Assembly: GCA_950295325.1 (NCBI GenBank)
Contig: OX485809.1
Span: 8,058,001-8,122,000, forward strand
Source of the DNA: Polytrichum commune
Lineage: Eukaryota; Streptophyta; Polytrichopsida; Polytrichales; Polytrichaceae
Direction of reading: 5' to 3'
DNA length: 64,000 bases
Part shown: in pieces, positions 3,001 to 44,602 of the stretch
How positions within the stretch are numbered: position 1 is the stretch's first letter
Layout: each line of letters begins with the position of its first letter
Notes under the pieces: model-generated
Told to the model about the DNA's origin: nothing
The model's input: only the letters and a program-made list of their open reading frames with translations
The model's database searches: none
Position numbers and translations under genes: made by a program

Positions 3001-6000
3001 GCTTTGGATGAAAGCTTGCCAACTCCAAGTATAAAACTCTTGAAAATTGCAAGTTTGAGGTCTCAACTCGAGCTCTAGTGTAAAGGGAGTCTAACGCTTT
3101 GTTCCTTTAGTCATATTGAGTCGACCTTGTGGAGCGCCACTAATTATTGTTAATATTCTTCATTTATTGACCAACAAATGGGCATAGGGACACATGCCCA
3201 GGCAAAGTGAAGTAAGAAGCAGTTAACTCTCAGGTCTTAAATGGGGACTTGTTGTGTAGGCTTACATGCATTACTGAGATTTATGACTGGAGTCACCATC
3301 GCCATGAACAGGGAAGATGCAAACGTTAGAAGTATTCAGGTGCAGACTCTCACTTTGCTACCTTCACCTAGTTTGTCAATCTAGTGGTAGAGAATAGTTC
3401 CAACTAAAACTCCATTGAACTAGGTTAAGTGAAATCAATTAGGGCTTCAACTTTCCTAAGTGAGCCTTTATTATTGCTTCACTTAAGTTGTCTAGTTTGC
3501 TTTTACGTAAGCTGATGTTGCAATGCCCTAATCTAGCCATCACATTGTCATGTACAGGCTTTAAATGAGGCAGGGCGGAAAGTTATTGGCTTAAAAATTG
3601 ATGACATCTTCTTGGGTGTCAAGGACTCAGGTAAGTGACCTTGGCCTGGAAAAAGTCGTGAGTACTACTGAAAATTTGGTCTTAAATTGGTCTTCAAGAG
3701 GAAGTTAGGTAGTGAGATTGATGAAAAATTTAGGCTCCAATAAATTTAGGAAATTGTTTTAGGGAGAAAAAATAAAATATACCAGTGAGCTAATCCAGCT
3801 CACCTGTGGCATTTGATCTTCTGTGATGGCAATAGTACTTTACACATATGTGGGCAAGAGTCTTAATTGGAATATAGTATGTCGTTGACTGCCTTGAAGG
3901 TGAGATCTGCTGTTCAAATAAATGAGGCTTTGTTCTGAATCAGGATGCATATTGGTTGAGAATTAACTGAAGCATGAGACTTGTGAGCTGATTCATAGAT
4001 TGTATCATACATGTGCAGGTCTACAGCTAGAAGTTGTCCTGAAACTCCTTCACTATGTTCAAGTAAGTCATGTGCTCTAAAAATGATCCATTTTAAGAGT
4101 GATTGGAAGAAAGAATATAGAACCCTCAAAGCTGATATCTTGAAGGCCCTGTGTGATAAGTCATCAATGAGCAGCTGTGCCTATTATTTTTACTGATATT
4201 TTACGAAATGGTGGAAAATTTTAGATAGTGTCAGCAAAGAAAATTGATGAGCGCTCCTGACTTACATGCTTTGACATTGCAGGCAAGTATAGTTGAGGAC
4301 AATTGCATAAGGACCATGGCCCAGTGCGTTATAGGATCCTTTGCCGTTAGGTAATTTATTTCTTGACGCTCTTTGAAATCCCATTGAATTCTACAGATTG
4401 GTGCAATTTGGCTATTGAGAATACACTGTTGCCTGAGCACGCAAGGTAGTTTGTTTGTCCTCCATTTCAAACTACTTGCTAATCCTTGTTAGTAAGGAGT
4501 TTGTGAGAACCTTGGATGTGTTATCTGCATTTATGTACTTATTTATAATCAAGTTACCAAGTTGCAAACAACAGTTTTTGACCTTAAGAGATTTAGGGTT
4601 CGTATCCATTAATTTTATCTGATTTTGCAGGGATATGTCAACACAAGCATCATGTACACTGATACAACCAAGCATGAGAAATCCTGATGCAAACACTAAA
4701 CCACCTGTACCTGCATTTGGTAAGTTTGCTTCCCTTACGACCAATAGAGATTCCTAAATCTGAGCTCTTCTTTATGTCACATATTCATAGCTGAGTTCAG
4801 TTCTTTTTTCCAGCCAATGAGAAGCTATGGCCAAGAGTTCATCCATATGAGAGCTGGATGGTGTCTAAAACTGCAACAACGCCTATGTTAAGTATGTACA
4901 CATCTCAAATAACACCATCACCTGCATCACCGACTCTGACCTCACAGATGGTTTTACAGTGCAATCCTTTGAAGGTATTATAACTTCTGGTTTTCATTCC
5001 CTTCAATTTGCTATCGTCTCGCTTGGACATGAAGTCCAAAGATTTTGTGTTGATCGGATGTAAGAGGTTAAAGAAGTTTAAATATGAAAGAGATAATATT
5101 TCTGATGGTTCTACATGCTCTATATCATATACTTCCAGGAGCAGCTTGCCATTTGGCCCAAGGCGTCAACACCTATATACTAAGTAAGGGTCATTAGCAA
5201 AATATAGGCTCTGACAAATTATGATAAGTTCATCAAGTATGAAAGTATAAAGTGTTATAATATGAGTATTAGATGTAAAAATGAGGTATCATAAGGTATA
5301 AAAGGAATAATGTCATATAATGATGTTTTTGAAAAGTCTTATTATATCTTAGACCCATGCACAATGAATCTCTATGAATCTTCTCTTTTTATCCATTGCT
5401 TGCAGAAAGTATGGAGGTGAACTATGCCAAATAAAATACGATTGGAGTTAGCTTCTGGAGTCCTTTGCAACAAAACCAAATCCATTGAGAGAATAAGTTT
5501 TGTGCAATAAAAATATGCATTTCTTAATGAGAATAAAGCATTTATAATAAACGCATGTTGCCACCCCAGGCCATCTGGTTGAAAATTATGTGTGATAAGA
5601 GAATTATAACGTTGGTGTTGCCACTTATTGTATTCTTCATCATTTGTCGGCAGCAGAAATAAGACTAAAATATGTGCCCTTGTCACTTGCAGATCATCTT
5701 CAAGGAGAAGACACTCTTTCAAATTGTATCTCTCATAGCAGAGTGTGTAGTTCTTGAATCTGCAGTGGTATTACCAGACAAATCACTGCATGCTGCATAC
5801 ATTACCCTTAAGGAGCTCGAACTTTCCATTCCTATCAATGGAGGCCTTATTGATGCGTCTGATAGAGATGGACCCTTCGCTGGAGTGAGACTCCGTATTG
5901 CTGGGTTCATGATGGCAAAAAGTCCATTTCTGAACTTCCGAACATTGGAGCTCGAGAAGGATCCCGGATGCAATAGGATATGGAAGGGAAATCCTGTGGA

Positions 6001-19142: not shown

Positions 19143-19466
19143 CATAGTGTGAAGTGAGAATGGACCATGTTGAGGGACCGTTGCATATTTTATTAGTGGA
19201 AAAAGAGGGGCAGCCCTACTACACTAGCTACATATCCTCATTCTTCTTTTTTTCACTTTCTTTTTGAGTTTTACATCGGTGAGGAAAGAAAAGAAAGCAT
19301 GGTGGATCATATTGAGAGAAGAGGGAGGATTTTCTTCTTTTTTTGAGACAGAAGGCCGACAGGCCAACGCCAAAGCACAGGAGGCAGTTGACCACTTGGC
19401 AAGTTTTCCGTCAAGTAGAGAGGAGATTTCACAGTCGGGATTCGAAGAGGGAGGATTCTTGTTGCA

Positions 19467-20644
19467 TTGGCGTTATATTGGTGTTTGCACATGATTGTGC
19501 AACATGTGTTTGATATGCAAGCATTGGCACTAAATGGAGAATGGGAAAATGCCATGATTTTGAACATTTGCTTTGAGGGTATGAAGATGAGCGATCGTAG
19601 TGTGTGGGCTTTTGAAATAAATGTAGGGTTCACCAATAGGCTATTATTAGAATATTTCACGGAAAAAATGTTCAAACAAAGAACTCGTGTATGTCACAAC
19701 ACATTCAAGTTTCTTTGTGAGAGATTAGATCCGTATTTGCAGAGAAAGAATACATGTATGAGAGAGACAATTTCAGTTGAGAGTAGAATTGCAATGTCAT
19801 TACAAAGGCTTGGGACTAGAAATACTTTGTCTATTGTAGGAGAGGTATATGGGGTGGCTGAAAGTACAATTTCAGAGATAGTTAGGAATTTTTGTAGATC
19901 GGTAAGAATGCATTTGTAAGGGACTTTTATACAATTTTCAAATCCAGCTCGGTTTAGGGTTTTAGCTCAAGAATTTGAGGCCCTTCATGGAATTCCTCAC
20001 ATTATAAGAGCAATCGATGGATCTCACATTCCGATCCTTGCACCTGTAGTTGAAGGAGAGGATTATTATTGTAGAAAATCATTTCATTCGGCTTTATTAC
20101 AAGGTATAGTAGATACAAAATGTATTTTTTGGGATTACAAATTCGGATGGGCAGGAAGTATGTACGATTGGACATTGTTTCAATTGACAAAAGTTGGAAG
20201 AGATTGCATCAAAGGCAAATTCTTACCTTATAAGTTGGTTGGAGATTGCGCATATCAAGTGCGGCCATGGATTTACAACCCATTCAAAGGGTGTGCAAAA
20301 TGTTTAGAAGGTTACAAAACAAATTAAAATTTCATTCAAAGTTCTACCCGTATGTGTGTCGACTTGCTTTCGGAATTTTGAAAGGCAGATGATGCATTAT
20401 TATGAGAAGAGCAAACATACCATTACGGCATGTGGCTGATTTAGTTGCTACATGTATTGTACTACATAATATGTGTACAATCGGAAAGGACAAATTTAAT
20501 ATAAAATGGATAGAAGAAGCAGAAATAGATCTGAATAGACGTATAGATAGTAGATTATTAAAAAAAAGACAAGAAATAAGGGTTGAATTAGCAGCAATAG
20601 GTGAGATCAGAAATATTAGTATTACAAAAATAATACAGGAATAA
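19467..20644 (+). pseudogene. PIF/Harbinger (HARBI1-like) transposase, dead
   Basis: The reading from about 19580 gives the HARBI1 pattern: FLCERLDPYLQRKNT, SVESRIAMSLQRL, VYGVAESTISEIV, then AIDGSHIPI (first catalytic Asp) and LVGDCAYQ (second Asp). The C-terminus is GILKGR followed by RRANIPLRHVADLVATCIVL and HNMC. Breaks are an in-frame TAA at 19917-19919, a frame change near 20290 that hides the catalytic Glu region, and a TGA after GILKGR where the family has Trp. The N-terminal DNA-binding part and the element ends were not identified. The protein would cut and paste its own element; it cannot be made from this copy. Confidence 0.8.
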
Positions 20645-28161: not shown

Positions 28162-29345
28162 TTATGAGTCTTGCAGGTTGGACGTGCCGACTTGCAAGTC
28201 ATTGAAAGTGAAGCCCCTCCTCAATGTAGTGTGTGATGACCTTGGAGCATGAAGGACAAAGAGATTTGCATCAACCTCATCCTCAATGATTATATTATGC
28301 ATAATGATACATGCGTACATGACATTAGCCATATCGGATGTGCTCCACAATTTGCAATGATGTGCAATCATGGACCATCTTGATTGCAAGACACCAAAAC
28401 ATCTCTCAACATCTTTCCGCGCGGATTCTTGACATGCAGAGAAATTGCTTTCTTTTTGGTCTTCTCGATCTTGTAGACTTTGCATGAAACAACTCCATTT
28501 AGGATAAATTCCATCAGCAAGTAGGTAGTATTTATCATACCAGTTTCTGTTAACCCAAAATCCCACTCCATTTGCATGACCAGTAAGTAGATTTCACACC
28601 AGAGGGCTCCTATCTAGCACATTCAGGTGATTGTTCCCCCCAGGAATGCCAAAGAATGCATTCCATATCCACAGCCTATAATCACAAACAACCTCCAAGA
28701 TGATGGACCTATTATTGTTTTTGTCTTGACATGACCATTGCAAAGCAACAGGACATAGTTTTCATTTCCAGTGCATGCAATCTATGCTACCAAACATGTC
28801 AGGCCAACCCCTATCTTGGTTCACAGTCATTTGTGTCACAATGTCCTCACAAGTGGGTTGACGCAAGTATTGATGTTCAAAACATCTACGAACCCCCTAC
28901 ACCAATGCAACATGGACTCTTGAGTAGTGTTAGGTGCCATCCTACAATATTTTTCGTACGCCTTTGCTGGTGTACCAAGCGATAGCATGAGCATGGCAAC
29001 TGTTGTTTTTTGCAAGGAAGACAAACCAATGGCACCTGCGCAATTTGTGCTCTGCTCAAAGTAATCATCACTCTCACAAACAGAGTTGTGCAATCTAAAA
29101 AAAAAGACACTTACGCATCCTATAAACCTCGCGAAAGAGGCAGCATAAAAAATGGGTGTCTCGGAGAAATAATCATTGTAAAGCAATTATGCGTGAAACA
29201 ACGCGTGCCTATCTTTGTTTAGTTTTCTACCTGGTCGGCTACCACCCCTCTGAACATGTTCATCATCTGAGGAATCTATATGGTTCATGTAGACTAATTG
29301 GTTCATCATGTATTCTTTTTCATCATCATCTTGGAGATTGTCCCT
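28162..29345 (-). pseudogene. PIF/Harbinger transposase of the Plant_tran type, dead
   Basis: Read leftward from about 29345: an acidic N-terminus (SSDDEHVQRGG), LFREVYRMRK, GLSSLQKTTVAMLMLSLGTP, then HQYLRQPTCEDI, the first Asp in MFGSIDCMHW, WIWNAFFGIPGGNNHLNVLD, the second Asp in YYLLADGIYPKW, and the Glu in ARKDVERCFGVLQSRW, ending ACIIMHNIIIEDE. These are ordered hallmarks of the plant Harbinger DDE family (Pfam Plant_tran, from memory). Breaks: a TAA near 29205, frame changes near 29130 and 28880, a TGA just after MHWK where Trp is expected, and a TGA near 28590. It is a different lineage from the copy at 19467. Confidence 0.85.
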
Positions 29346-29681: not shown

Positions 29682-30014
29682 CCCTTGACAATAGGGAAGC
29701 TATCTTATGAGTGATGAGCAGTGAGCGGTGAGCAATAACACATGAGCAATGAGCATTAACATATGAGCAATGAATCCAAATTTAGTAAAGATACATGGGT
29801 TTAGGGTACATAACCAAAATTTTGATAAATTAATTGCATATTTTCAATTGTAAATTGCCATTATTTTAAATGAAGCACAAGTGAAAGGGCCCTATTGCCA
29901 TGGATCATTTAAAATACTTTCAATCCATTGTTGACTTTTATTATAATAATCCAAACCAATACATGTCATTTATTGACATCCTTATACATGTAGTTACAAC
30001 CAACACTTGCACAA

Positions 30015-33000
30015 CTATTCACATTCTACAATACCAACAAGTTCAAGTAGGTGCATAACCTCATTGTACGTATATGTAGGTGCATGAATGAACTTATCAC
30101 TCTCATAATCCACCTTACACAAAAATCTAAAGACATAATAAAGATGTTTGTAATACACCCATTTTGTCGCAACCCTTGCTAGCCCCCTTAGCAATCTTGC
30201 CAATTTTCCTTTCTAGCATAGGTTACGAGCGCTAACCCTTCGCATTCCGCCATGCTAATGGTTAGCTCCTCTTACCCCGGACCATATAGTTCATATGAGG
30301 GGAACCAACCCTCCTACTTTGCTTTCGGGACTCACCCCTTAATCGGTAACCCATTTCTTCGATGTGGACTTCCATCCATGGAAGTCTAATCCTACGTTGA
30401 TCATCGCGTTGCCGGAGCAACACTACAACAACCCGAACCATACTAGGCAACTATGGCCTCACAATGGGCCAAAGCCCATGGAGGCCGTGCCGTTCGGCCT
30501 CGGGTGGGTGAGGCCACACCACCTCACCCATATAAGCCTCTAGGACTTTACGCGGGGCCCCTACCCCACCGTCAACCAACCTCTTGTCTCTCTACCAAGA
30601 GTTGGGGCCAAGTGGACATTTTCCTTTAGCTACTGGGCCTAGAACCCCCCCAGCAGCTTCAGACCATCATAACTTCCTTGTATGATGTCTGATCAGAACA
30701 ACCAACCACTTCATCTTCATCTACGCTTCACGTAGATGCCGATGGACTCCTCACTTGCCCCATTCGAGCAAGTCTTGAGGAAGTTATGCCTGTTTGAACC
30801 TTGGCAGTCCCGGGAATCATTCCCAGGCACTGCTGTACCAGGGCGCTGTCCCGGGACAGCGCCCCACTCAAATGGCCATAACTCCTAGCTCACACCTAGC
30901 TTGAGGTGATCTTGAGCATTTTAGAATAACCACGCCATGAGCTACGCATAGCTCATGGCCTTACCCTCATGCCTCCTAGTCTCCGTGGGTGGGAGGCGTT
31001 CCCAACGCCCGGGACCCTCACCCACACTAGGATCACTTGGGGCCTCTCACCAACGGCGCCACAAGTCCCGGGTGTCACTCCGGGGCCCCCCTTGTGCCCA
31101 TGGTGTTCCGGGCACTCCTCATGGAGAGGTGCGCGACACATTTCCCTTTATTTCCCAATGCTTGAGAGGACATTTTCATAAAGTTTGGACATGTGCAATG
31201 CGGGATATCGCCAATTGTGATGCAATATGTGATATCCTCTTTGGAGATAATGTTGATTATCACTCCATAGCTAGGATATGGAATGGCAATGACACCAACC
31301 ACATAGTAACCGTCCATGAGTCCAACGCTCTCCCATTTGTTTTTGTGATCTGTCATCGGTGTTGTTGGATTACGACGTACTGACTTTCCAAACCTGAATA
31401 TAGGGTGAGCATCGGGATTCAGTGGCATACAAAAATGCAAACGAGGGATAGGAAGGGTTGGTGTTGTTGAAAGCCTATGACGAGGGGACAATGCCTCCCA
31501 CTGTTGTAGTTGAAATCCGGCGTCCTCCAGTGCCAACACCTCCTCTCTTGATAGATTGGTACCCATCTTCACTGGCCAAATGTTGGGCATTGTAGGCCAA
31601 TCCAATACATATTTTTTCTTAGTGTCACTTACACAACACTTGATGTCATCATGTCAAAACCAAAATTCATACTCCACATTGTTGGTAGAACGAAATTCCT
31701 TTTTGAGCCCTCTGTATGTTGGTGTAGGTGTGCCATGATTGTTGCTCCCGACTTTGGCATTGCACATAGTCCATGTAATGGCTTGCAATGCCCAACATTG
31801 TTAAGTTGAGTTGGGTGGTAATCTTGCAATGTGCCAATTGGAAACGAGACATTCACTCTCTAACACAAATGTAGTATGAACTACAACATGCTCTATAAAA
31901 ATCAACGATTCCTCTATGCGTTGGCGAGTTGCCCGGGTGTTAGGATGAGGAATGGAATAATTCACTTTGTCGGGTCGATGAAAGTCGCAATCGGCACCGG
32001 GTGGAAGGTTGAGTTTTCGTTTGGTGGATCCAAATAACTCGGACCCTTCCAATGCACAATCTTTGGTGTTGGTACCTTCTGCCCCTGGGTAAGACTTCAT
32101 AGCATCAACCAATATTTTTGGATTCCCACACCTAGCAACTGCTTTGTATTTCAAAGACGCATAATCCGGGCCTTTACCATCTAATCCCCTTTTCAACCAT
32201 GTCCGATAATTTGCAATTTGCATGAAGGCACGAATCATGTCATCCTTAGTTGTTTCATATAAACAAGTCATCTTGTTGCCGGATTGTTGGAGCCATTTGT
32301 TGTGTACAGTTTCTGCAAGGTTGCATATTGGCATTTCTACACGTTCTCTGATTGTCATATCTTATGAAGCACACACAAATATAGGGTTAGAAAAATGAGT
32401 TATAGATATGTTAGAATTAAAATGAATCAACAAAAACTCAATGACATTGAATAATGTAAATTACTATGCATTTACAAGTAACATGTGACCACCCCATTGT
32501 CTGTAACGGAAATGCCAAAATCCCAACCACTCTGAAAGGCCGAAGATACCTTCCTCTGTGATAGCTCCGGATGACAACCACCAAGAACAAATGACATAGT
32601 ACTTAGTCTCGGCGTCGTCCATTATTTTCGCATCTTTATAATCCTTACATATTTGCTTGTGTTGAAATTGCAATGATGGTTTGATATACCTCTGTGTCAC
32701 CTTATTCAAACTTGCAGACCAATGAAAAAGACATATACGTTTACGTGCGACCATATGCAAAGTTGGATTACCATCATCGTAAATCATCCTCACCGCATTC
32801 CGATTAGCTTGAGCACTGTCTGCCATGAACCCTTTGAAGTTTACCTTTGAAACACCATTCTCTACCATTACAACATTCAAATTTTTCTAAAAGAGAGTTT
32901 GTACTGTACCATCATCAGATTGCATGTTACAACATGCAATGATCAACACTTTATAATATCGACTATCGTACACATGACAAGCCATTGTTGTCAAATCTTT

Positions 33001-34602
33001 CACACGTTTAACATGGTCAAACATAATCCAAGAGTTCTTCATGTCCCTTCCTGACTTGCATATTTTTTACAAGCTCCACACCATTGCCTGGAAGATCTAC
33101 GGACATCTTAAAAACAAACACTTTGTTTTTTTATTGCATTGGGAACCGACTGTCATAAACAAACTTAAAAGTAGAATGGTCTTTAAGTGCCATAATATTA
33201 TCCATAGTTCCCATTCCATTACACACAAAGCATTTCGATCTAAATACAAAATTATGACAATTTGAAGATGCAAGAGTATTGAATTTGTCCATGACCACCT
33301 CTAATGATGAACCAACTAGGTGATGGCCTTCATCAATAGTGGGAGATTTGATAAGATAATCGCCAATAATTGCTTGCTTGCATCCAAAACTATAGCTGAA
33401 TTTGTTGCGGTGCGTGTTTTCAACACTTCATTTGCAACGCACTGGTATGTAATGTCTAATGATTCACGACATATACCATTGGATACAGGGTAATCATGCA
33501 TACCAAGATGAATGCAAGCCCTTGACATCTCAATAGATGTGGAGTAGACATAAAATATGCGAGCATAATACAAAGCAATGCACATAGGTGGTGTTCGGCA
33601 TACCTTACACTCAAAAGTGGATCTAGCAGGGGCAATGTCACCAACAACAAATGGGAGATGAATTGAACTTGCCCACTCGGTGTTATTGCGCATACCTCCA
33701 TTGCGATGCATGTAATCGCAGTGATCATTTTGACATTGGAGATGACATGCACAAGTAGATCGTCGAAAGGACAATCCAAAGTCGTTTTGGATATTCGTGG
33801 TTTTCGTGGTACACCAAGGGTGACTATCGCACATCTTGTCCATGCCATCCATTGAACGACCATATGCACTTGGAACTCCAAGTGACACAAGGGATAAGAT
33901 ATACAAAATATCACCATCGAAAGAAGATGGTAAGTACTTGACATCGCGAACCATTATATTCTCAAAATCAATTGTGGTAAGATCCGACTTTGACATTTTC
34001 CTACACTTTGTGAATTTCAAGGCATCAATGATAGTCAACCTTATAGATGAAAGCGAAGGGTGTAATGAAGGACGTTGAGAAGGTGTGTCGTGACAAATAA
34101 ACTTCTTGTACAAAGAACTACATAAGGATTTGGATACATGCAAAGGAACTTAACAATGAGTATTTTTAAAAGAAAATGACGATGTGTCCGACATATCAAC
34201 GGTTGCACAAATATTATCATCAGAATCTGATAATATACACACAGTATTATCATCAAGCTCCAATTTAACATTTGCAACATTTGGCATTTGAATTGTGGAC
34301 GCGCTAGATTGGTTTGTCAATATAACAGTTGAAGCTTACATTTGGGACTCATAAAGACCTATCATTCTGAACAAACCAGGCCTTAAAATCCACATTGAAT
34401 TATGGTCAATTCTATTATTTTGGATCGGGATTGTTTCACAGACTTGTCCATCCGTAGAAAACATCTTCTGCTCTAAATACATGGATCCCGTCTAGAGATT
34501 GAACCTCAAACTGAGAAGATCCTCTAAGTCACATATGTGACCATCATCTTGAAGTGGCAACGTGAATGGAACAAATGATCCATGACCTCTAATGGTGGCC
34601 AT
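30015..34602 (-). pseudogene. MULE-type transposase with C-terminal SWIM finger, dead and split
   Basis: Read leftward from the ATG at 34602. The N-terminus is acidic (ILSDSDDN). A Cys/His block follows (CACHLQCQNDHCDYMH). The core has HVYDSRYYKVLIIACCNMQS, FKGFMADSAQANRNAVRMI, CLFHWSASLN and WWLSSGA..GLSEWLGFWHFRYR, taken as the D, D, C/H and E regions of a Mutator fold. The C-terminus is a SWIM finger, PHCTCPNFMKMSS..VYYKHLYYVF, then FIHAPTYTYNEVM. The usual Cys of VYCKH is Tyr here. Breaks: stops near 34495, 34325 and 34155, further stops and a frame change at 33310-32880, and the solo LTR at 30165-31138 inside the SWIM finger. Removing that insert with one target copy restores the frame exactly. 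Confidence 0.75.
30165..31138. mobile_element. Solo LTR, 974 bp, inside the transposase
   Basis: Starts TGTCGCAACCC and ends GGTGCGCGACA, giving a perfect 6-bp inverted terminus TGTCGC/GCGACA with the TG..CA ends of long terminal repeats. The 5-bp duplication CATTT flanks it at 30160-30164 and 31139-31143. It is far more GC-rich than the surroundings. There is no gag, pol or second LTR, so it is best read as the product of recombination between the two LTRs of a retrotransposon. Gypsy or Copia origin cannot be told, nor can orientation. Confidence 0.85.
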
Positions 34603-36103
34603 AGAGATGGAATGCAATAGATGCACTATACAATATTATTGAACGTAATGGGCTCCTTATGTTGAATGTTGTATAATATAATATTGCATGAAATTGAAAT
34701 GCATGACATCATAATACTAAATAATACAGAAATAGACATCATATAATAATAGCCGAAAATTATTTGTAGACGAAACATACAACCCTAAAGCAAACCCTAA
34801 AAAATATCTCATTTGGAAATCTAATCATACACAACCCAAGACTAAAAAATGTCTTATTTGAAAACCTAATCATACGAAACCCAATCCACTAGTGGAATGT
34901 AGATTATAATTTCATCATAACATTATTTGTAAACAAGACCTAGTGTGCACAAAAGAAGACTTAGAAATGCAAGAAGAAGGGTGCACAACTTTGACAAAGA
35001 GGAGAAGAAGGAAGAAGGGTTTGAAATTTTCAAGCACGAAGTAATTATAGAGGGCCAAAATGGAACGACAAATGGATAGGGTCACTTTCTGTGACATCGA
35101 AGACATTGCACACGTACTAGAATTTCCTGCAATAGAAGAAAATGAGAATGTTGAAATCGAGACGCAAAATAGCAAACAATCCCTCATTTTTGGAAATGAT
35201 GATGATAAATGAATGAGCAACACTGCCAACAATATGTATGACACAGAACAAGAAGGAGAATGTACTTTCATTTACAATGCACCGGTAAGTATTTCATGGT
35301 TTTTATATATAGACGAGGCAATTTTCCAATGAATATCATCGGGGGGAGGGGGGGGGCAGTGTGTTAAAAAGTTAAGGATATAGGTGCGAACAACCACTAT
35401 TTTATAGGGGGGTATTACTTTCAATTTTTTTTCCACATGCTATTATTATGTAAAATTATTCTTTCGGTTGATAAAAAAATGGCTTGCATTACTTATAATT
35501 CCAAATTACCTATTATTCCATACCCTATAGTATTTTAAAGATGTCCAGTGTCATTTTTGATACCCTATATTATTCTTAAGTCCATTTATAATTTTTTGCT
35601 TCTATGTTTTTAAAATACCCTATCATTTGTTCGCACGTATATTGCTACTCCAACCAATGACTACCTCCCATGAGTGAATATCACCTCTTGAACTTCTAAA
35701 ATACCAAGCATATAAATTGTGTTTCTTACGCAAAATTTGATTGTAAGTGACTTGAAAACATAAAACCACATAAAAAAATGAGAATGTTCTCAATCAAAAG
35801 CATTGTATGCAGATTAGTGGCTACTACATCCAGAGCAATGTGAGAAGGCAACATGAAAACCTTAACCCTGGAAATCAGAAGGGATTTTTTCTCCATTTTG
35901 AAACAACTCTTTACGGGGAGTTTTTTCCGTTCTAATTCACTCGTGTCAGAGATTTTTTTTCCGATTCGAATTATGTTCCCAGGGGTTATGAGGGGCGAAG
36001 AAATAATTCTAGAAATAGACATTGTTTTGGCCAGAACCTTTAGGGAAATTGAACGTTTTGGAATGGCCAGGGAAAAAAATTACCATTTCGCGAGGGTTGT
36101 GCG
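34603..36103 (+). other. Divergent centre of the MULE, with a possible 5' exon of the plus-strand gene
   Basis: Both element genes read outward from here, so promoters are expected. From about 34930 to 35284 the plus strand looks coding after one frame change. There is a basic stretch (HKRRLRNARRR), then an acidic stretch (DRVTFCDIEDIAHVLEFPAI), a stop near 35212, and a consensus donor GTAAGT at 35285. It may be the first exon of the 36104-43798 gene. A G-rich run (35340-35357) and AT-rich sequence follow. No TATA box could be singled out. Confidence 0.4.
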
Positions 36104-36488
36104 CAGAAGGCACACGGTGTACAGAGGAAGGCGAACACACAAAGTGGAGTGCCAATGAAGAAACCAAGTGGAAGAACAATGGCCAACGCGTTTGCTCCGA
36201 CAAACTCGCTCCTTCATCAAGCGGCGAACAACCCACCCACATCCGCCAATGTGTACATAACATCTGATAGCAATGATGAAGCGACAGTTGGCATAAATGT
36301 CGAGTTGGCAACGCCATCATCAGACCCTTCTCCAAAACAATATGTAAGTCTTTTTTTCATTATATCTATAAGTTTTTTTCAAATATCAATGGTCATAATC
36401 ATTTTTGTAAATGCTTTGAAAGAGAAGTTTGTACCAAAATCCTTATTACAAACTTTTCTTTCAAAATAACACTTATCATTCACCCATT

Positions 36489-36840
36489 TTATTTTCATAC
36501 CATAGCCGCTGTGCTCATTTTTTTCTATGTTTGTTTCTTCAAAGAAAATTCTGGAATAGGGGTTTCGGTACCAAAATCCCTATTTTGTTACTTTCTTTAA
36601 TAACAAAATACTTTTCATTCAAAATTTTATATCGATGTCATAGCCGCTTTCCTGATTTTCTTGTAATAATGTTTTTTGAAAGAAAGTTGTGGAATAGGGG
36701 TTTTGGTACTACTTTTTTTCAAAAAAAAATTATTCTTCATCATTTTCATGTTCATGCCAAAGCGGTTGCCCTCCTTATTTTTCATGCTTATTTCTTCAAA
36801 AGAAGTCCTAGAATAGGGGTTTCGGTACCGAAACCCCTAT
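36489..36840 (+). repeat. Palindrome array, left part (intron of the methyltransferase gene)
   Basis: Units of ~125-135 bp each carry a 34-bp near-perfect palindrome centred on GGTACC (half GGAATAGGGGTTTCGGT), with ATACCATAGCCG and TTTCTTCAAAG words between. Palindromes lie at 36553-36586, 36691 onward (decayed) and 36811-36840 (exact). The array stops at 36840 and resumes near 39820. Confidence 0.8.
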
Positions 36841-39800
36841 GTAGTTCGTTTTTTCATCCAGGGTTCCAGCTCGAAAAACACCCAGGGAAGACTAAATGAG
36901 TGTCAGATGTATCTTTAGTTTGTCACGATAAGGTCGATTGATAGTTCAAAGGGGTTGTCGTGTAAACTAAGATCGTTAAACACAACAGATCGAGTGTCGT
37001 CGTCAACATCAATTAACAAAATAAAATAGCAAACTAAAATGCTAAACAACCACCTCTTCAAGATGAGGGTTTCTCTCTCCAAGCTTAAGAAACTAAAATG
37101 TCTCCTTACAAAGCTTAAGAAACTCTAAAATTCACACACAAGAGTCAAGCTATCTCTCACTCCACGAAGGGAGAATCCAAGAGTGCAAGTGGTGGAAAAA
37201 GAATGCAAAGGCTTTACTCATAATCTATTACACCATAGCCATGAGAAAGCAACAACAAGCTCTCTCTCTCTCAAAACACACTCACAAGACTTGACTTGAC
37301 AACAATGGCAAGTCAAGAGGCCTTCCTCTCCATACAACCCCAATCCTATGTGGAGTTCATCCATGGAGTGGATGAACAACTAACTAGGACTCCCAATGGA
37401 GTCCGTTACTCATCCCAACACACATGGACTCCTAGTGGAGTCCATTTACTCCTAAATTGACGTGACTTAGCCCCCGATGTCACCTCACGTGACAGGGTGA
37501 TGGAATGGGTTTAACACTGAATTATTATAATAATTCTATTTTCATATGAATTGACTTGTCACACACTCATCATAAATAGATTTATTCATTACACAAATGA
37601 TGATACTATTTAAAACATTTCCATACTTGTAAAAATTAGGACTTAGGGAATTTTTATAAAAGTCTAGTTACAAGTGACAGAGCCACGAACCAGGAACGAA
37701 GCGAGAAGCGTCCTAAGCAAACCGGGTCAGAACATTAACAATCTAGTCCCAAGTCACAAGTAAACGTCTAGTTCCAAGTTCCAAGTAAGCGTCTAGTCAC
37801 AAGTATCCAGAGAAACGTCTAGTAACCAGTTCCAAGTAACTAGTAACCAGTGTCCAGTAATCGTCTTAGAGTATCAGAGAAGCGTCTAGTCACATTAGCC
37901 ACACTGGAGGGATAGGTTTTATACTTACCTTTGTTGGCTATCCCAATCGATATGGGATAACTGGGACCTTCTTCCTCCTCTCTCCACAGCGTCTCCTTCT
38001 CTCGTCAACGTAAATCCAATCTTCTCAACTTGCTCGACCAGCTTCGCAACTCCTTCCTTTCCCGGTGACACAAATCTGGATTCTCCTCTTTTCTTAACTC
38101 CAAGATTGCATTTCAACATCCGGTGTTGCTTCCCATTTGCTTTTCACAACAGGATCCTCCTACATCGTGAAACTTTTGCAACCCCAACTCTATCAGTGTA
38201 GAGAATTTATTTTGGAGATTCACTCATTCCCCCAATTGGAAATTCTCGACCAAGATGCAAATCACATTCTTAATGGCATGAGAAAACCAATTGGTCCCCC
38301 CATACTTGCTCTTCTTGAGAATCAAGGAAACAATTCACAATGATTTCTCGACAACTCACTTCAATTAATTCTTATTCTGTCTCACAAAAGGATATGTGGT
38401 CCATTCCTTGGGGATTTCAGAGACGAAAAATTCATATCTCCGAGACTTGTACTCTTCACTTCCAAATAACGAGAGACGGACACTCGATCTTCGAGTTAAA
38501 CTTGACTTGACAAATTTGTTATGACCAATGTTCTTGGTTAACCAGTGAAATGAGTCTCGATAATCACTTAAACCAATCTTCGGCTCTTAACGAATTCTAT
38601 CAAGATTCCTAATTTGATTTAGGCTCTTCCTTGTCGAGCTTGAGGTGATTTAAACCATCAACCTCTCTTATGTAATCATAACTTCACCCGTCCACAGGTG
38701 ATTCATGATAAAATCAAACTTCCACTCTCTGCACACGTTTCAAGTGCACGCCTCACTTATTAATGCGAGAAGCTACGTAGAAAGTGGAGAGGAGTGCATT
38801 TCAGTAGATGGAACACTGGATTGGAATTAATCTCTTTCCAAGAGTGAACAGAGAGGATCATGAGCTTCACACCCATATAGTGGAACTCTTCACAAACCCA
38901 CTTCGCACACTCTTCTCACCAGTCAGTCATCTTATGACTCTTTATCTATTTGAAGGTATTTGACTCAGTGTGGGTGAATCACGCACTTCCCTTGCACAAG
39001 AGTTTCACACTCAAGGAAAAGGGTTAATGGGAAACCATTTTACTCTTTCTTATCCAAAAGGTAATGCACCACACACATTTCAGGTATGCAATATTCTCAG
39101 ACAAGGGAGTTGAAGTGTGTGAGGAATAAAAGGATCTAGGTTTTAATCAGATGTGTATCACAATGAAATTCTCGGGCTTCACACCCGGACACTTATAATC
39201 ACCGAGGAATTACTCCTCTGTAGTTAAAACATTAAGATACTGTCCAATAAATTCTTACTGAATCTGTCTTCAATACAAATAAACTTCCCGCATGTTTTTA
39301 CTCAAGATAGTCACACTTTTAAGACACATTCAAATCAAACGACAGTGTTCTCAATTTCACATTCAAGGCTCACTGAGAAATGATTGATAATTGCGATACG
39401 TATTGATATATTCCAAAATATGATTTACAAGGACATTAAGGGTTTCACACCCAGTAATCGGGAGAGACAAAAAACATTCACTCTCTTCACGAGAGGAAGT
39501 TCAAAAATTAAAAATTGCTCTCCCTTCTGCGCTCTTCCTCCCCTTCTTATCTTCATGTTCCCAAAGGTGGTGACTGTCCCTAGTTAGGATACCAAGTGCT
39601 TCTTCTAATTGTCACATGTGAATTCCATGACTCCTGATATCTTCTAGACTATGGGCAGCAAGGGAATTTCTATCTTACTTGCATGTTTCCGCTTCTAAGT
39701 AACTAATTGCCTAGTTCTTCATTATTTTAACAGTCTTGAGTGAAATTGGTCATTTATCTACCCTTCAAGACTAAAAATTACACATCATGTCCAAAAAATG
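36841..39800. mobile_element. ~3-kb insertion of unknown type splitting the palindrome array
   Basis: The array breaks after AAACCCCTAT at 36840 and resumes with TTTCACAACTTTC near 39815. The interior has no recognised protein domain. It holds a run of GTCTAGT and CAAGT/CCAGT words at 37740-37900, pyrimidine-rich stretches and the recurrent phrase TTCACACCC. Ends and target duplication were not found. A degenerate non-coding retroelement is possible but unproven. Confidence 0.45.
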
Positions 39801-39829
39801 GTATCACACCATATTTCACAACTTTCTTT

Positions 39830-40330
39830 CAATAACTTACCTCTTCTTTGCTTCTTTCGTGTCGATGTCATAGCCGTTGTCACGATTTCCTTGTATGGAT
39901 GTTTTTTTAAAGGAAGCTGTGGAATAGGGGATTCGGTACCAAAACCCCTATTCCACTACTTTCTTTCAAAAAAACTTTCTTCTTCATCAATTTCATGTTC
40001 ATACCATAGGGGTTGCCTTCATCATCTTTCATGTTTGTTTCTTCAAATTAAGTCTTGGAATAGGAGTTTCAGTACCGAAACCCCTATTCCATAACTTTCC
40101 TTCAAACAATACATTTTTCCTTCAATAATTTCATGTTGATGCCATATCCAATGTCCTCATTTTTCTTATGTTTATTCTTAAAAAAAAGTTTTGGAATAGG
40201 AGTTTCGGTACTGAAACCCCTATTTCACAATTTTCTTTCAAATATTAGAATTTATTCTTTACTAATTTCATGTGTATGTCACAACTGTGACTTTTATTTT
40301 TTGTATGGCTATTTCTTGAAAGCAGAGTGG
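39830..40330 (+). repeat. Palindrome array, right part
   Basis: Continuation of the array, with palindromes at 39921-39954, 40057-40090 and 40193-40226 and a last half-unit before the splice acceptor at 40379. Each can fold as a 16-17 bp stem in RNA or DNA. Confidence 0.8.
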
Positions 40331-43300
40331 ATGATTTTTTTCGCTTATTATAAGCTTTGATTTGGTTGTTCATATGTAGGATAACATTTTGGCGGACACC
40401 GACATTGAAGAAACATCAAAAAAAAAATTGGACAAAAAAAATTTCAACTCTATCATCAATGGCTTGTGAATTCGACCTCTTTCTAAATCTCGTTTATCCA
40501 TTTCTACATGTCGCTTGGAGCCATTGCCTTTGGTCATGCCAATTCTAGAAATTAATGTTCAGTTGTTGGAGAATGAATTTCTCAATGGATATAGAGAAGG
40601 TGATCGTGTGTTGTATGTTTCTATCGTCAACGATTGTGGGGAGAGTTTATGTGTGACAGAGCATAAGTTGAATTCTTGGGATCCAATATGGAAACAAGTG
40701 AACGATTTTTTTAGGCAGTCACTTTGTCGTGATGAAGATTTGAAGGTTTTTCAAGGTAAAATGTTTTGGGTATGAGAGCGTAACCACCGAGTTACAACAT
40801 GGAGACGACAGGTAGATAGAGTTCATGCGGATGAGGATGAATGACATTATAGTGAGGATTGTATATGTCTTAATTCGATGGATGTCATTGGCGTTCTCTT
40901 AGATTCCATAAATGACGTCAATAGGTAAGGCCTAAAGCCTATTAATTAAATTTTTTGTCAATTGCAATTTTATTTGGTCAAATTGAATCTTATATTTAGA
41001 AATTTATTTTGTTGAATAGCGGATCTACGGAGAATGATCACGTGAAGACCAATTTGGTCCATAAAACCCATTGCATTCGGAGCTTTGGGTCTTTGAAGCT
41101 ATAAAAATTCAAATTTTTTTTGTCCCCTGAGGATTGTACTAAGTGCAAGAAGAAATGTCTATTGACTACATGGTATCCTCTTACTGCAATCATTTTTGAA
41201 GCTTTCATCTACAAGGTGAGTCTTTAACATCTTAATGTCTACATCAATTTCATATTCTTACATTAAGTTGTATTATTATTTTAAAATGATTTTTTTCAAT
41301 GTTGTTTTCAACGTTATGTTGTTGCAGTATCATAAGATGCATGTCGTGAATACAAGGATAACAGTCCAATGGTCCAAAATCCTCTTATGCTTGAATTGCA
41401 TGCTATAGCAAATGTGCTGAAGAAAACACTGAGGGCATATAGGTCAAAGGAGTTTGATAGACTCCTTGCACTTGCGGATCACAAATGACGTTGATTTTGT
41501 AAAATAGGTAAGTCTTTACATTATTCGTTTAATTTTTGTAATATGTTTTGTTATATTATGTACTTTATATTCAACATTATTTTCATTGTTTACAGATATA
41601 TGGGCATTGGAGTTCTAATCCTAAACCAGAAATGACCTTGGAGAAATTGCAAAAAATTGCAACAACTCCAGTGGATGGTAAGTATAAAATGAAATGATAA
41701 AATGAAAATAATAATTTTTTGAGAGCGTTTATATTTCTTTAGATAATTATTTGACATAACGCTTTATGTGTGATTTCTAATTTTTAGTTAAATGAGGGTG
41801 TCATCAATGAGTTTCATGACATTCTACCACAATTGAGTGATGTGGTTTTGGACAACGTCCTCGAAATTAGAAATTATATAGAGAAATGGTGTTGTCTTCT
41901 CTGGAACAAAGCGTATACATCCAATTTTACGCGGTTCAACACCATTTGCAAAATTCACAATATTAATGAAGAATCATGAAAGTGAATTGGCAGTGAAACG
42001 TGTCATATATAAGTATTTTGTTACACTTCACTATTTTGAAATAATAAAATTTATCTTCATTGGTAATATCGAACTAAATTTGTTTATTGAATTTGTGTAA
42101 ATACCTAACAAGAGAGTTTTAATTCCGGAAAACAATTTCATTGCAAACATTGTCTTCATTCTTGAACTCATGGGCTGACAAGTCAATTCACCAATGCATA
42201 TTTTCAGCCTTACAATTGATATTATGGACTCATGATTTATTGGTTCATTGTCCATGGTTTATTGAATGTCCAACAAATTTTTATCCCGCCGAAGAATAAA
42301 GTCTTAGGTTGTCAATGAAGCCATCACAACCAATGAAAAAAAACCTCATGAAGAACAACAATATTTTGGGAGAGGAGGTAAACATGAACAGAAAGCGCAT
42401 ACTACACCAAACCCTTCTGTACCAGCGAAAGTGGTTGTACCATCGCCGCTACTGCCGCCATCTGCACCAATGCCACAAAATAATAAACGCAATGTTGATT
42501 TGCACATTGATGATATAATTGTATTAATTTTTAGTCCACCCCAAGTTGTTATTGCTTTAACACCTTGAAATTATGTTTTTCAATCTCAACATGTGGTTGT
42601 TGAAGCTTCTGATGGATCCAATATACACAAGGTTTCTATATTTGTAAAGAACGAGTACATCTCCAATATGCTAGAAAATGGTGCAATCGACAAGCCAATG
42701 TTGATAATCGCGTTTGAATTTGTGAAAAATGTTAGTAAATTTGAATAACATTATTTAATTTCTTATGTTTTTACAAATTTTTGTGCTTGAAAATAATTAT
42801 TTCTTATTTATGAAATTCTAATGTATTTTATTTTGATTTATAGGTTGGCCATATTCGCAACACTCGTGTTTCGTCCGAAATTTGTAAATTTGGTGGATTT
42901 GATCTTATCATTGCGGATTTGCGAGAAGGTCAACCTATTCTGAATGAATCTTCTCCTCTAGATTTAATTGTATCTTGGAATGCACACAACTCAAAGGACA
43001 TAGAAACTTTGTTAGAATTTTCAGATGGTTTTCTCACAGATAATGCTCCATTGCTATTATTTCTTCTAGAGTTCAAAATTATTAGGGATGATGTTATGGC
43101 ATATGCTGCTTCATATGAATTTGTATTGACAAAGGATTGGTGGGCAATAAATGAATTGTCATTGTGTCTACCAACATATACAAAACTTACGATACACTCC
43201 TATCTTAAATCTTCAAGTATTTTTTTTGATTATGTGTGGATTTTATTTGTTGTTTGATATCATGATAAATAACTATTTTCTAATAACGAGGATACAATAT

Positions 43301-44602
43301 TGTATATGGACTCAACGGTTTCGGCTCATGATGTTCTTTTGATTGGAGCCCCGTCCACAATTTATTTTCAACAAAGTGGGTGGTCTATTTCAATGGAAGT
43401 GGGGGCTTTAGATATCTTCTTCAATCGTACTACGTCTAAGACTCAATTCATGCACGAAAATATCCCATTGAGAGGAGCACGTGAAAAAGACCCTAAGTCT
43501 TTACAGTTTCTTATTGAAGCATTGACTAAACCAGGAAGTGTTGTTCTTGATGCTTATGCATCTACATGTTAGAAACAAATTTTTTTTGTTTTTTTTGTAA
43601 GTTTTAGAATTTAAGTATTTTGTACATGACAAATATGTTATGATATGCACGATTGTATTTATTGCAGGTGCATCTATTCATATTTGTTGTCGTGGTGGCC
43701 GACATCTTGTTGCATTCGAAAAAAACTCAGCAATTTTCGACGCGATATTAGTCCCTTTGTGTGATTCATTGTCACCTCCTATTGTCCATGGCTTATAATC
43801 AATTAACATGGCATGCGAAGATGATGACGAGCCTATTCGGAAAGTTCCAAGGAAATCTCGCTTAAGTATGCAAGTTTGTTGGTTTGAATGATTTTAAAAA
43901 TTTGGTTTTTCTTGTGGACTACTTAGTCTTCCACCAATTTTTTCTAACATTTTAAGATATTGTGTGTAGAAAAATGAAGGAAGCGATGTCCCCCCCCCCC
44001 TTCATCAATTGATTCTCCCTGTGTATGCCGAGTCTGAGGCGATACGGTTAGCAACTGCCATTACATCTCCAAAGCGAAGTACATCTAAACATTATGATTT
44101 TCGTATCTTGACATTCATGGATATAAAGGTAGAGGAATGTAATGTTCGTATTTGTAATAATAAGGAGAATAATAAATAATAGAATAGAATAGAATATAGG
44201 TGTTTGAAGAGGTCTTGCACATGACTTGGTATATATGTGTACATGTTTTTTTTTTGGTGGCAATTATCTAGTTTTTATAAAATAACCACTAAGAGTGGAC
44301 ATTGATTTGTGTGACCATTGTCTAAAATCCCTAAACCCTAATGATTTCCACAACATCATTGTTTTATAGCTTCTATCATTATTTCAAATGTTCATATGAA
44401 TTGGAGTAATCAATTGGCAAGTTAGTTTTCGGCATGTAGCATGTGTTAATGTTTGAGCTACAAGTATGTGGTAATAGGATACTAAACCCATGGTGATGGG
44501 TATGTTTCTTGAATTTTTCTCACCCTAATCCGCTAAAAAATGACTACTCACTGCTCATCGCTCACTGCTCACCGCTCATATGATAGCCCTCCCCCTTGAC
44601 AA

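Follow-up and report, generated by a model that had tools for sequence, protein, structure and literature searches.

What would a moss transposon do with a gene for a protein of the DNA-methylase type? The question is raised by an element at 29692-44592 of a 64,000-nucleotide stretch of the Polytrichum commune genome (assembly GCA_950295325.1, contig OX485809.1, positions 8,058,001-8,122,000 of the forward strand), the whole of which is called the window here. A preliminary description, made from the letters of the window, held the element to be a giant Mutator-like element (MULE) with a transposase gene on the minus strand and, diverging from it, a multi-exon gene on the plus strand for a DNA amino-methyltransferase with a ParB-like domain. 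The explanation that now seems best overall, with the case for and against it about evenly balanced, is that the element is the dead remnant of a two-gene transposon with terminal inverted repeats (TIRs), the halves of which have apparently been exchanged and the second protein of which would be a self-recognition factor. Relatives were sought in 407.8 Mb of the genome, in 64 contigs, and were sorted into lineages A, A', B to H and T. The same genome gave 28 matches to NAC-domain exons, taken to represent about 14 genes, which together with its seven large contigs would suit a land plant poor in NAC genes, perhaps a moss. These letters are labels of this analysis; C, F, G, H, T and A' are based on one copy each, and G is known from its ParB-like exon only.

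A Two-Gene Transposon Family

The element is flanked by exact 10-bp target duplications, CCCTTGACAA, a sequence that occurs at these two places only within the window (Table 1). Such a pair alone is weak evidence, since two or more occurrences were reached in 1 of 100 shuffles. Motifs of the TGAGCAGTGAGC type (at most one mismatch) number six in the window, every one of them at the element ends, and six were reached in none of 100 shuffles. The two ends are related to each other as TIRs, both here and in other copies. When the flanks were joined through one copy of the duplication and used as a query, 16 of the 21 matches listed spanned the junction, the best at 89% over 350 bases, and three empty sites aligned base by base were each gap-free across it. 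Because the flanks match gap-free empty sites in this way, the boundaries are right to the base, and the insertion went into one copy of a dispersed repeat. The direct repeat, the related inverted ends and the empty site with a single duplication copy, all of which the preliminary description had pointed to, are thereby confirmed.

Of six elements for which both ends were available, five have exact target duplications and one, C2a, has none; in two of the five the shared stretch is 12 or 13 bases long and may partly consist of element end. Other copies with both ends measure 11,428 to 15,225 bases, the longest including an insertion of about 2.3 kb. At the right end of copy C6t (locus L030, C6:11823000-11826999) the terminal repeat is expanded, with 15 matches of TGAGCGGTGAGC spaced 14 bp.

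The window copy itself is old, broken and dead, as judged from three in-frame TGA codons in its ParB-like exon and an insertion in its transposase. Its second-gene exons differ from those of copy C2a by a synonymous divergence (dS) of 0.21-0.28. By comparison with copies C3a, C4a, C2a and C2b it holds two secondary insertions, with approximate limits as in Table 1, so that the size which had earned it the name of giant is partly due to them, even though the span first given was exact.

The element is a TIR DNA transposon of MULE-like kind. The label is given because of the duplication length, the ends and a SWIM-like motif that stays below Pfam's cut-off, the 10-bp duplication lying within the 8-11 bp of the MULE superfamily. 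Pfam transposase models did not match the lineage T and B proteins at E values up to 10, nor did the transposase match any PDB sequence. The SWIM model PF04434 reached 14.9 bits in the lineage T protein, below its cut-off of 19.6, and did not match the lineage B protein, although the CxC...CxH residues are present there by eye. Also seen by eye only is a D...CxxH arrangement, which we take to be a feature of MULE/DDE transposases. What stands of the proposed MULE-type transposase with a SWIM finger is thus the duplication, the ends and a SWIM-like motif below the cut-off, but not a match to a transposase model.

The pairing of the two genes was followed with the best-scoring candidates of four queries: the ParB-like protein (150 scored of 1192, with two lineages favoured), the transposase (97 of 2366), the 179-bp left end (40 of 455) and second-gene DNA (40 of 166, giving 82 matching pieces). 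Many of the 150 ParB-like matches listed are without internal stops, and in many copies the right end lies directly 3' of the second gene. A divergent ParB-like match lies within 15 kb of 12 of the 97 transposase matches listed, where random placing would give 0.27; this count used 149 of the 150 ParB-like matches (one on contig C53 was left out), and it is a floor because of the restriction to the best ParB-like candidates. The transposase and the ParB-like exon are divergent at 13 loci, namely the window, C3a, C4a, C2a, C2b, C1L15, C6t, C2n25, C1n26, C3n27, C3L11 with L031, C2L22 (where only the N-terminus of the transposase is present) and L033, which bears out the divergent multi-exon gene first described.

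The four named lineage-A copies were chosen since both of their genes were already listed, so that they say nothing on co-occurrence. Where the choice was made by transposase or left end alone, which gave C6t and three copies of the young family D, the ParB-like exon is present in four of four cases, and methylase exons in all three that were sufficiently read. Ends that never include the methyltransferase gene, the outcome that would have spoken against the preliminary description, were not found among these four, three of which represent one young family. Pairing of the two genes as chance neighbours is ruled out by the counts of co-occurrence. A transposase-only family was also considered as the source of the ends; the family with a 742-amino-acid frame was expected to be without the second gene, and all three of its fetched copies have the ParB-like exon. 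Many of the 40 matches listed of the 455 left-end candidates have identical scores, which suggests that related or shortened copies multiplied in a recent burst.

Probable Exchange of the Two Halves

The transposases of lineages T and D are 93-98% identical, with a dS of 0.13-0.18. Their second genes are only 27-48% identical; the ParB-like and middle exons have a proportion of synonymous differences of 0.77-0.78, which is saturated, and the methylase exons a dS of 1.6-1.7. The same holds for A against T and A against D, with transposase dS values of 0.21-0.69. At the DNA level, T and D are 88-95% similar across the left end and the transposase; the likeness tails off around the transposase start and is seen again only in the last 200-360 bases. 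Because the transposase half is nearly identical where the second-gene half diverged anciently, the two halves of the element have different histories and appear to have been exchanged. The proposed check for matching trees of transposase and methyltransferase therefore gives a negative answer. Fast evolution as the cause of the second-gene divergence was rejected, as saturation or near-saturation affects its synonymous sites but not those of the transposase.

A possible alternative, which in our judgement falls somewhat short of an even chance, is that the transposase half of lineages with different second genes was made alike by gene conversion and not by exchange of whole halves. A low transposase dS beside a very high second-gene dS is expected under both processes. 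The similarity takes in the left end completely and breaks off close to where the transposase starts, as a single exchange predicts, though a long conversion tract is conceivable.

Palindrome Arrays

Lineages A, T, D and H contain tandem arrays of long palindromes in the stretch that separates the transposase start from the ParB-like exon, so placed that each has a family-specific motif in tandem repeats of a non-coding region. The unit measures 136 bp in A (TGGAATAGGGGTTTCGGTACCGAAACCCCTATTCCA), 105 bp in T (AATAAGGGTGGCCGTTAACGGCCACCCTTATT) and 104 bp in H (TGTTTGTGCGCTGGCGCACAAACA), while D has arrays of a 64-bp unit (AAACCCTGTGCGTTAACGCACAGGGTTT) and a 32-bp unit (ACAGTTTGGGTCGGCCGACCCAAACTGT). 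For each of 10 filtered arrays of A, T and D the palindrome score was reached by none of 100 dinucleotide shuffles of the consensus, and for the H array by none of 200. In lineage G the score of CTCTCGGCTCCGAGAG was reached by 0 to 5 of 100 shuffles, depending on the array. The window copy retains one exact palindrome core.

Exact patterns of the A, T and D palindromes were searched through the whole genome, with the reversed patterns as controls. Sites numbered 41 for A, 143 for T and 215 for D, and each pattern read backwards gave none. Proximity for A and T was judged against all 82 second-gene DNA pieces and all 150 ParB-like matches listed. The A palindrome lies within 8 kb of lineage-A second-gene DNA at 37 of its 41 sites (38 if right ends are counted); the remaining sites are near no lineage-A match, and none is near a ParB-like match of the T or B kind. 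Only two listed ParB-like matches are near A sites at all, and both are themselves lineage A. Among the 50 T sites listed of 143, 43 are within 5 kb of a ParB-like match at least 65% identical to T, 7 are near no match, and none is near lineage A. None of the 50 D sites listed of 215 (all on C1) is near a lineage-A match or a listed ParB-like match, and 44 of them are within 13 kb of a selected transposase or left-end match.

In places the two arms of the palindromes change together. In H the pairs GTTTG/CAAAC, GCTTG/CAAGC and GGTTG/CAACC occur, and such pairs are found in A and D as well. In A the one-sided changes number 56 against a shuffle minimum of 60, the complementary cells 290 against a maximum of 291, and the double changes 6 against a shuffle mean of 3.2 and maximum of 9. 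A lineage-E copy (L019, C5:18218700-18228699) has a single 54-bp perfect palindrome upstream of its ParB-like exon. Upstream of the ParB-like exon of a lineage-H copy (L033, C1:9653500-9663499) there are plus-strand frames at 4345-5261 with a kinase-like HCDLSFTNI ... IGDWGSA by eye, which gave no Pfam match.

The Second Protein

In the second gene, on the plus strand, a ParB-like exon is followed by a middle region and then, at the C-terminus, by an N6/N4 DNA-methylase domain (PF01555). Conservation of the ParB-like exon is high, with 38 invariant columns among eight sequences. PF01555 was matched by all five joined-exon proteins (A, B, C and two of E, the E value limit being 10), the first with 35.2 bits against a cut-off of 26.7. 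An unspliced 577-amino-acid frame of lineage H covers positions 1-216 of 221 of the model with 32.4 bits, above the same cut-off. PHROG DNA methyltransferases were also matched, to 1.2e-12, and among PDB sequences the methylase profile found DpnA at an E value of 0.00029. Nearly full-length PF01555 matches also occur on two small contigs, C10 and C12 (E values of 9.6e-26 and 2.2e-16), perhaps as bacterial contamination.

Motif IV precedes motif I, as in DpnA, because a second, very low-scoring piece of the DpnA alignment (-3.3 bits) places the profile stretch vdlliadlPeglpv on DpnA's VDAIITDPPYNISV. Lineage A reads DLPEG at this point, with DFPEG in C2b and DLREG in the window; A' and E read DLPEG, with DLPED in one E copy; and the others read DIPEN (C), DIPEG (F), DYPDG (T), EYPDG (B), QFPDG (D) and DIPYG (H), those of C, D, F, H, T and A' being taken from one copy each. 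The motif is thus D/E/Q-x-P-E/D in eight of the nine lineages seen and D-I-P-Y in the single lineage-H copy read. The catalytic motif of amino-methylases is [DNS]PP[YFW], and its aromatic residue is required for normal activity. In the same eight lineages the canonical motif is not found, an E or D replacing the aromatic residue, and in lineage D a Q replaces the first acidic residue too. Motif I is better kept: D153, A156, G159, A160 and a later acidic residue are invariant in five aligned proteins from four lineages, and lineage H has V in place of A156.

Because the aromatic residue is missing in all but one of the lineages seen, ordinary amino-methylase activity is doubtful, except perhaps in H. 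For the D-x-P-[ED] lineages a domain that binds S-adenosylmethionine (SAM), holds DNA or is altered in some other way seems more likely than an ordinary amino-methylase, whereas the protein of the DIPY lineage may methylate element DNA.

The gene has probably been maintained for long. The ratio of nonsynonymous to synonymous divergence (dN/dS) is 0.13-0.35 for the lineage-E copies C5L19 and C7L20, 0.14-0.36 for C5L19 and C4L24, 0.25-0.84 for C5L19 and C2L22, and 0.05-0.22 for A against A' where dS is finite. Several of these comparisons show purifying selection. As to its origin, no relative was found in viral contigs with either profile, nor in bacterial and archaeal contigs with the ParB-like profile, in scans that need short conserved words and miss distant relatives. 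Transfer from sequenced viruses or bacteria was set aside on these results.

How the Second Protein May Act

A system that recognises its own DNA is suggested because branches of the family carry the second gene together with palindrome arrays of their own, in a manner that resembles VANC proteins and VANDAL elements. In such a system the second protein would bind the palindromes of its own lineage, presumably as a dimer, would load in this way onto element copies of its own kind, and would sustain the expression or mobility of the element in the face of host silencing, in the way of VANC on VANDAL elements. In our reading, then, it may be a self-recognition, anti-silencing or expression factor. 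A more specific version is held more tentatively. Here a plant transposon would have evolved self-recognition independently: the ParB-like/methylase-like protein would read lineage-specific palindromic iterons, protein and iterons would form an exchangeable specificity cassette joined to a shared transposase cassette, and the methylase would mostly have turned into a non-canonical SAM-binding module for recognition or anti-silencing.

Several observations count against self-recognition by such a protein. The ParB assignment of the exon is weak, because the PHROG ParB-like match is sub-significant (best E value 0.051, in two of eight members) and the register of the motifs is no better than a control: hhalign of the ParB-like profile with ParB places GNHR on GERR, not significantly and below the methylase profile that served as the control. 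The ParB models of Pfam did not match the exon, and a single-sequence AlphaFold2 model of the ParB-like part, with a confidence (pLDDT) of 29, is unusable for the fold. Some close comparisons have a dN/dS of at least 0.5, and degraded or very close copies reach 1.87 (one exon pair, dS 0.012). Eight of 11 loci fetched by their ParB-like match alone were without a transposase in the 4.6-6.0 kb read upstream, and three were with one. The arrays are also uneven. B is weak, with 3 of 100 shuffles in two arrays of one copy and none in two others, and its other copy has no qualifying array. There is no significant palindrome array in A' (9 of 100), C (16 of 100) or one E copy (24 of 100), no qualifying array in the other three E copies or F, and no perfect palindrome of at least 14 bp in the lineage-A copy C2b. 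For the D palindrome the reference was a selection of transposase and left-end matches on C1 and not lineage-D second genes. Finally, the paired arm changes are only modestly above shuffles in A and indecisive in T and D, and since array and second gene share one element half, linkage alone would make them travel together.

This linkage also speaks for a rival in which the arrays are by-products: hairpin-prone repeats expand, their arms are made symmetrical by template switching, and they follow the adjoining second gene. The modest covariation and the lack of a significant palindrome array in A', C, E and F agree with it. It seems somewhat unlikely all the same, given that four lineages hold long palindromes of differing sequence, that the A, T and D sites listed are not near the second gene of another tested lineage, and that the target motifs of VANC, in the available text of the source, likewise lie in tandem repeats within introns and upstream regions (PMC5735166).

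Self-recognition by binding has also to be set against a working N6-adenine/N4-cytosine methyltransferase with a ParB-like targeting domain, which would mark element DNA, either to guide the transposase or to prevent cytosine methylation by the host. The PF01555 domain, the invariant positions of motif I and the D-I-P-Y kept in the one lineage-H copy read all speak for such an enzyme, and binding together with modification of the transposon's own sequence has been proposed for algal transposons as well, in the part of the source available (PMC12477816). The E or D in place of the motif IV aromatic in eight of nine lineages, and the Q of lineage D, make it unlikely. The amino-methyltransferase with a ParB-like domain that was first proposed thus stands in its methylase domain, with PF01555 above its cut-off, but not in a firm ParB match or an intact motif IV, and marking of the element's own DNA by methylation cannot be assumed from a catalytic motif altered to this extent. 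Passive capture of the second gene in the style of Pack-MULEs, without any role in the element, would suit a broken window copy and the habit of MULEs of capturing genes, yet is very improbable for a gene that recurs across lineages (mostly at 40-66% protein identity in the ParB-like exon), keeps the same exon order and divergent orientation wherever both genes were read, and has a dN/dS well below 1 in several comparisons.

Features of the Window Copy

The features of the window element are collected in Table 1. The insertion in the transposase is a dispersed repeat, and its reading frame was seen again, by eye, in loci L021 and L032. Just to the left of the element, at 28162-28593, there is a remnant that matches PF04827 (Plant_tran) at 7.4e-37, and open stretches at 19419-20327 are similar to it by eye.

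Table 1. Parts of the window element, in window coordinates
Feature	Position	Strand	Basis
Left target-site duplication, CCCTTGACAA	29682..29691	+	Shuffles, empty sites
Left TIR, TGAGCRG heptamers	29692..29771	+	Motif count, other copies
Transposase gene, MULE-like, broken; SWIM-like CxC...CxH near C-terminus	30024..34602	-	Frames, relatives
Transposase pieces	34602-34288, 34038-32479, 32361-31135, 30164-30024	-	
Secondary insertion in transposase C-terminus	30165..31136	.	Absent from compared copies; dispersed repeat
Likely N-terminal exon of second gene, basic stretch, stops	35000..35289	+	Inferred; similar open stretch in copy C4a
Likely second exon of second gene	36119..36345	+	Inferred
Array with lineage-A palindrome; single exact GGTTTCGGTACCGAAACC at 36818-36835	36400..36840	+	Copy comparison, palindrome search
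Secondary insertion within palindrome array	36841..39808	.	Absent from compared copies
Remainder of palindrome array, degenerate units	39809..40260	+	Copy comparison
ParB-like exon of second gene, three in-frame TGA	40407..40925	+	Translated frame
Methylase exon, motif IV region (ADLREG in window; ADLPEG in C3a, C4a, C2a)	42844..43194	+	
Methylase exon, first half of SAM-binding motif I	43399..43566	+	
Methylase exon, second half of motif I and acidic motif	43667..43777	+	
Right TIR, TGAGCRG heptamers	44520..44592	-	Motif count, other copies
Right target-site duplication, CCCTTGACAA	44593..44602	+	Shuffles, empty sites

Known Systems and Significance

MuDR with mudrB resembles the moss element in having two genes per element and a duplication of similar length, about 9-10 bp. 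Unlike the second gene here, mudrB is not known to encode a methylase or a ParB domain.

A closer likeness in gene content is that to Sola1-1_Ec32 of Ectocarpus, where an accessory gene on the strand opposite to the transposase is predicted to encode ParB-like and N4C/N6A methyltransferase domains; the source, as far as available, also mentions similar proteins in green and red algal transposons, citing Iyer 2011 and Petroll (PMC12477816). Both elements contain a divergent accessory gene with a methylase domain and a ParB-like domain, the latter weak here. The one is a Sola1 element of a brown alga, whereas the other is a MULE-like element of a land plant with a 10-bp duplication. The many lineages, the mostly altered motif IV, the exchanged halves and the lineage-specific palindrome arrays are features of the moss family, as set against what the available text tells of the algal element.

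In the manner of its presumed recognition the family is nearer to VANC21 and VANC6 of Arabidopsis VANDAL elements, which, according to the available text, bind family-specific motifs accumulated in tandem repeats within introns and upstream regions, with targets that differ between families (PMC5735166). Common to both are a MULE with a second protein and family-specific motifs in non-coding tandem repeats. The VANC motif is short and directional, whereas the moss arrays contain long palindromes as putative binding sites, and no methylase domain is mentioned for VANC in that text, whereas the second gene here has one. The joining of a ParB or ParB-like part to a methylase is shared with Bce_0392 of Bacillus cereus, an adenine methylase whose ParB domain is reported, in the part of the source available, to nick DNA (PMC5512222); unlike the plant transposon gene, it is bacterial. 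A survey of MULE families gives second open reading frames of unknown kind, and a SET domain in some, and the word "methyltransferase" is nowhere in its main text (PMC6446971).

ParB-methyltransferase genes of algal transposons are thus already in print. A full-text literature search that is thin on subscription journals and preprints turned up no comparable gene reported from MULEs or land plants, which agrees with the preliminary description in its remark that none was known for a plant MULE. The new parts are the exchanged halves and the lineage-specific palindrome arrays.

This family touches an open question, namely how a transposon can evade host silencing and yet not derepress everything else. 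We know of few worked examples of such selective escape, VANC being the main one known in plants. Within the single genome of P. commune there are several lineages of protein and of candidate target, naturally combined on nearly identical transposases, and this would make specificity directly testable. If the proposed reading is true, a methylase fold of prokaryotic type would be a long-lived component of transposons in a land plant, mostly without its usual catalytic motif.

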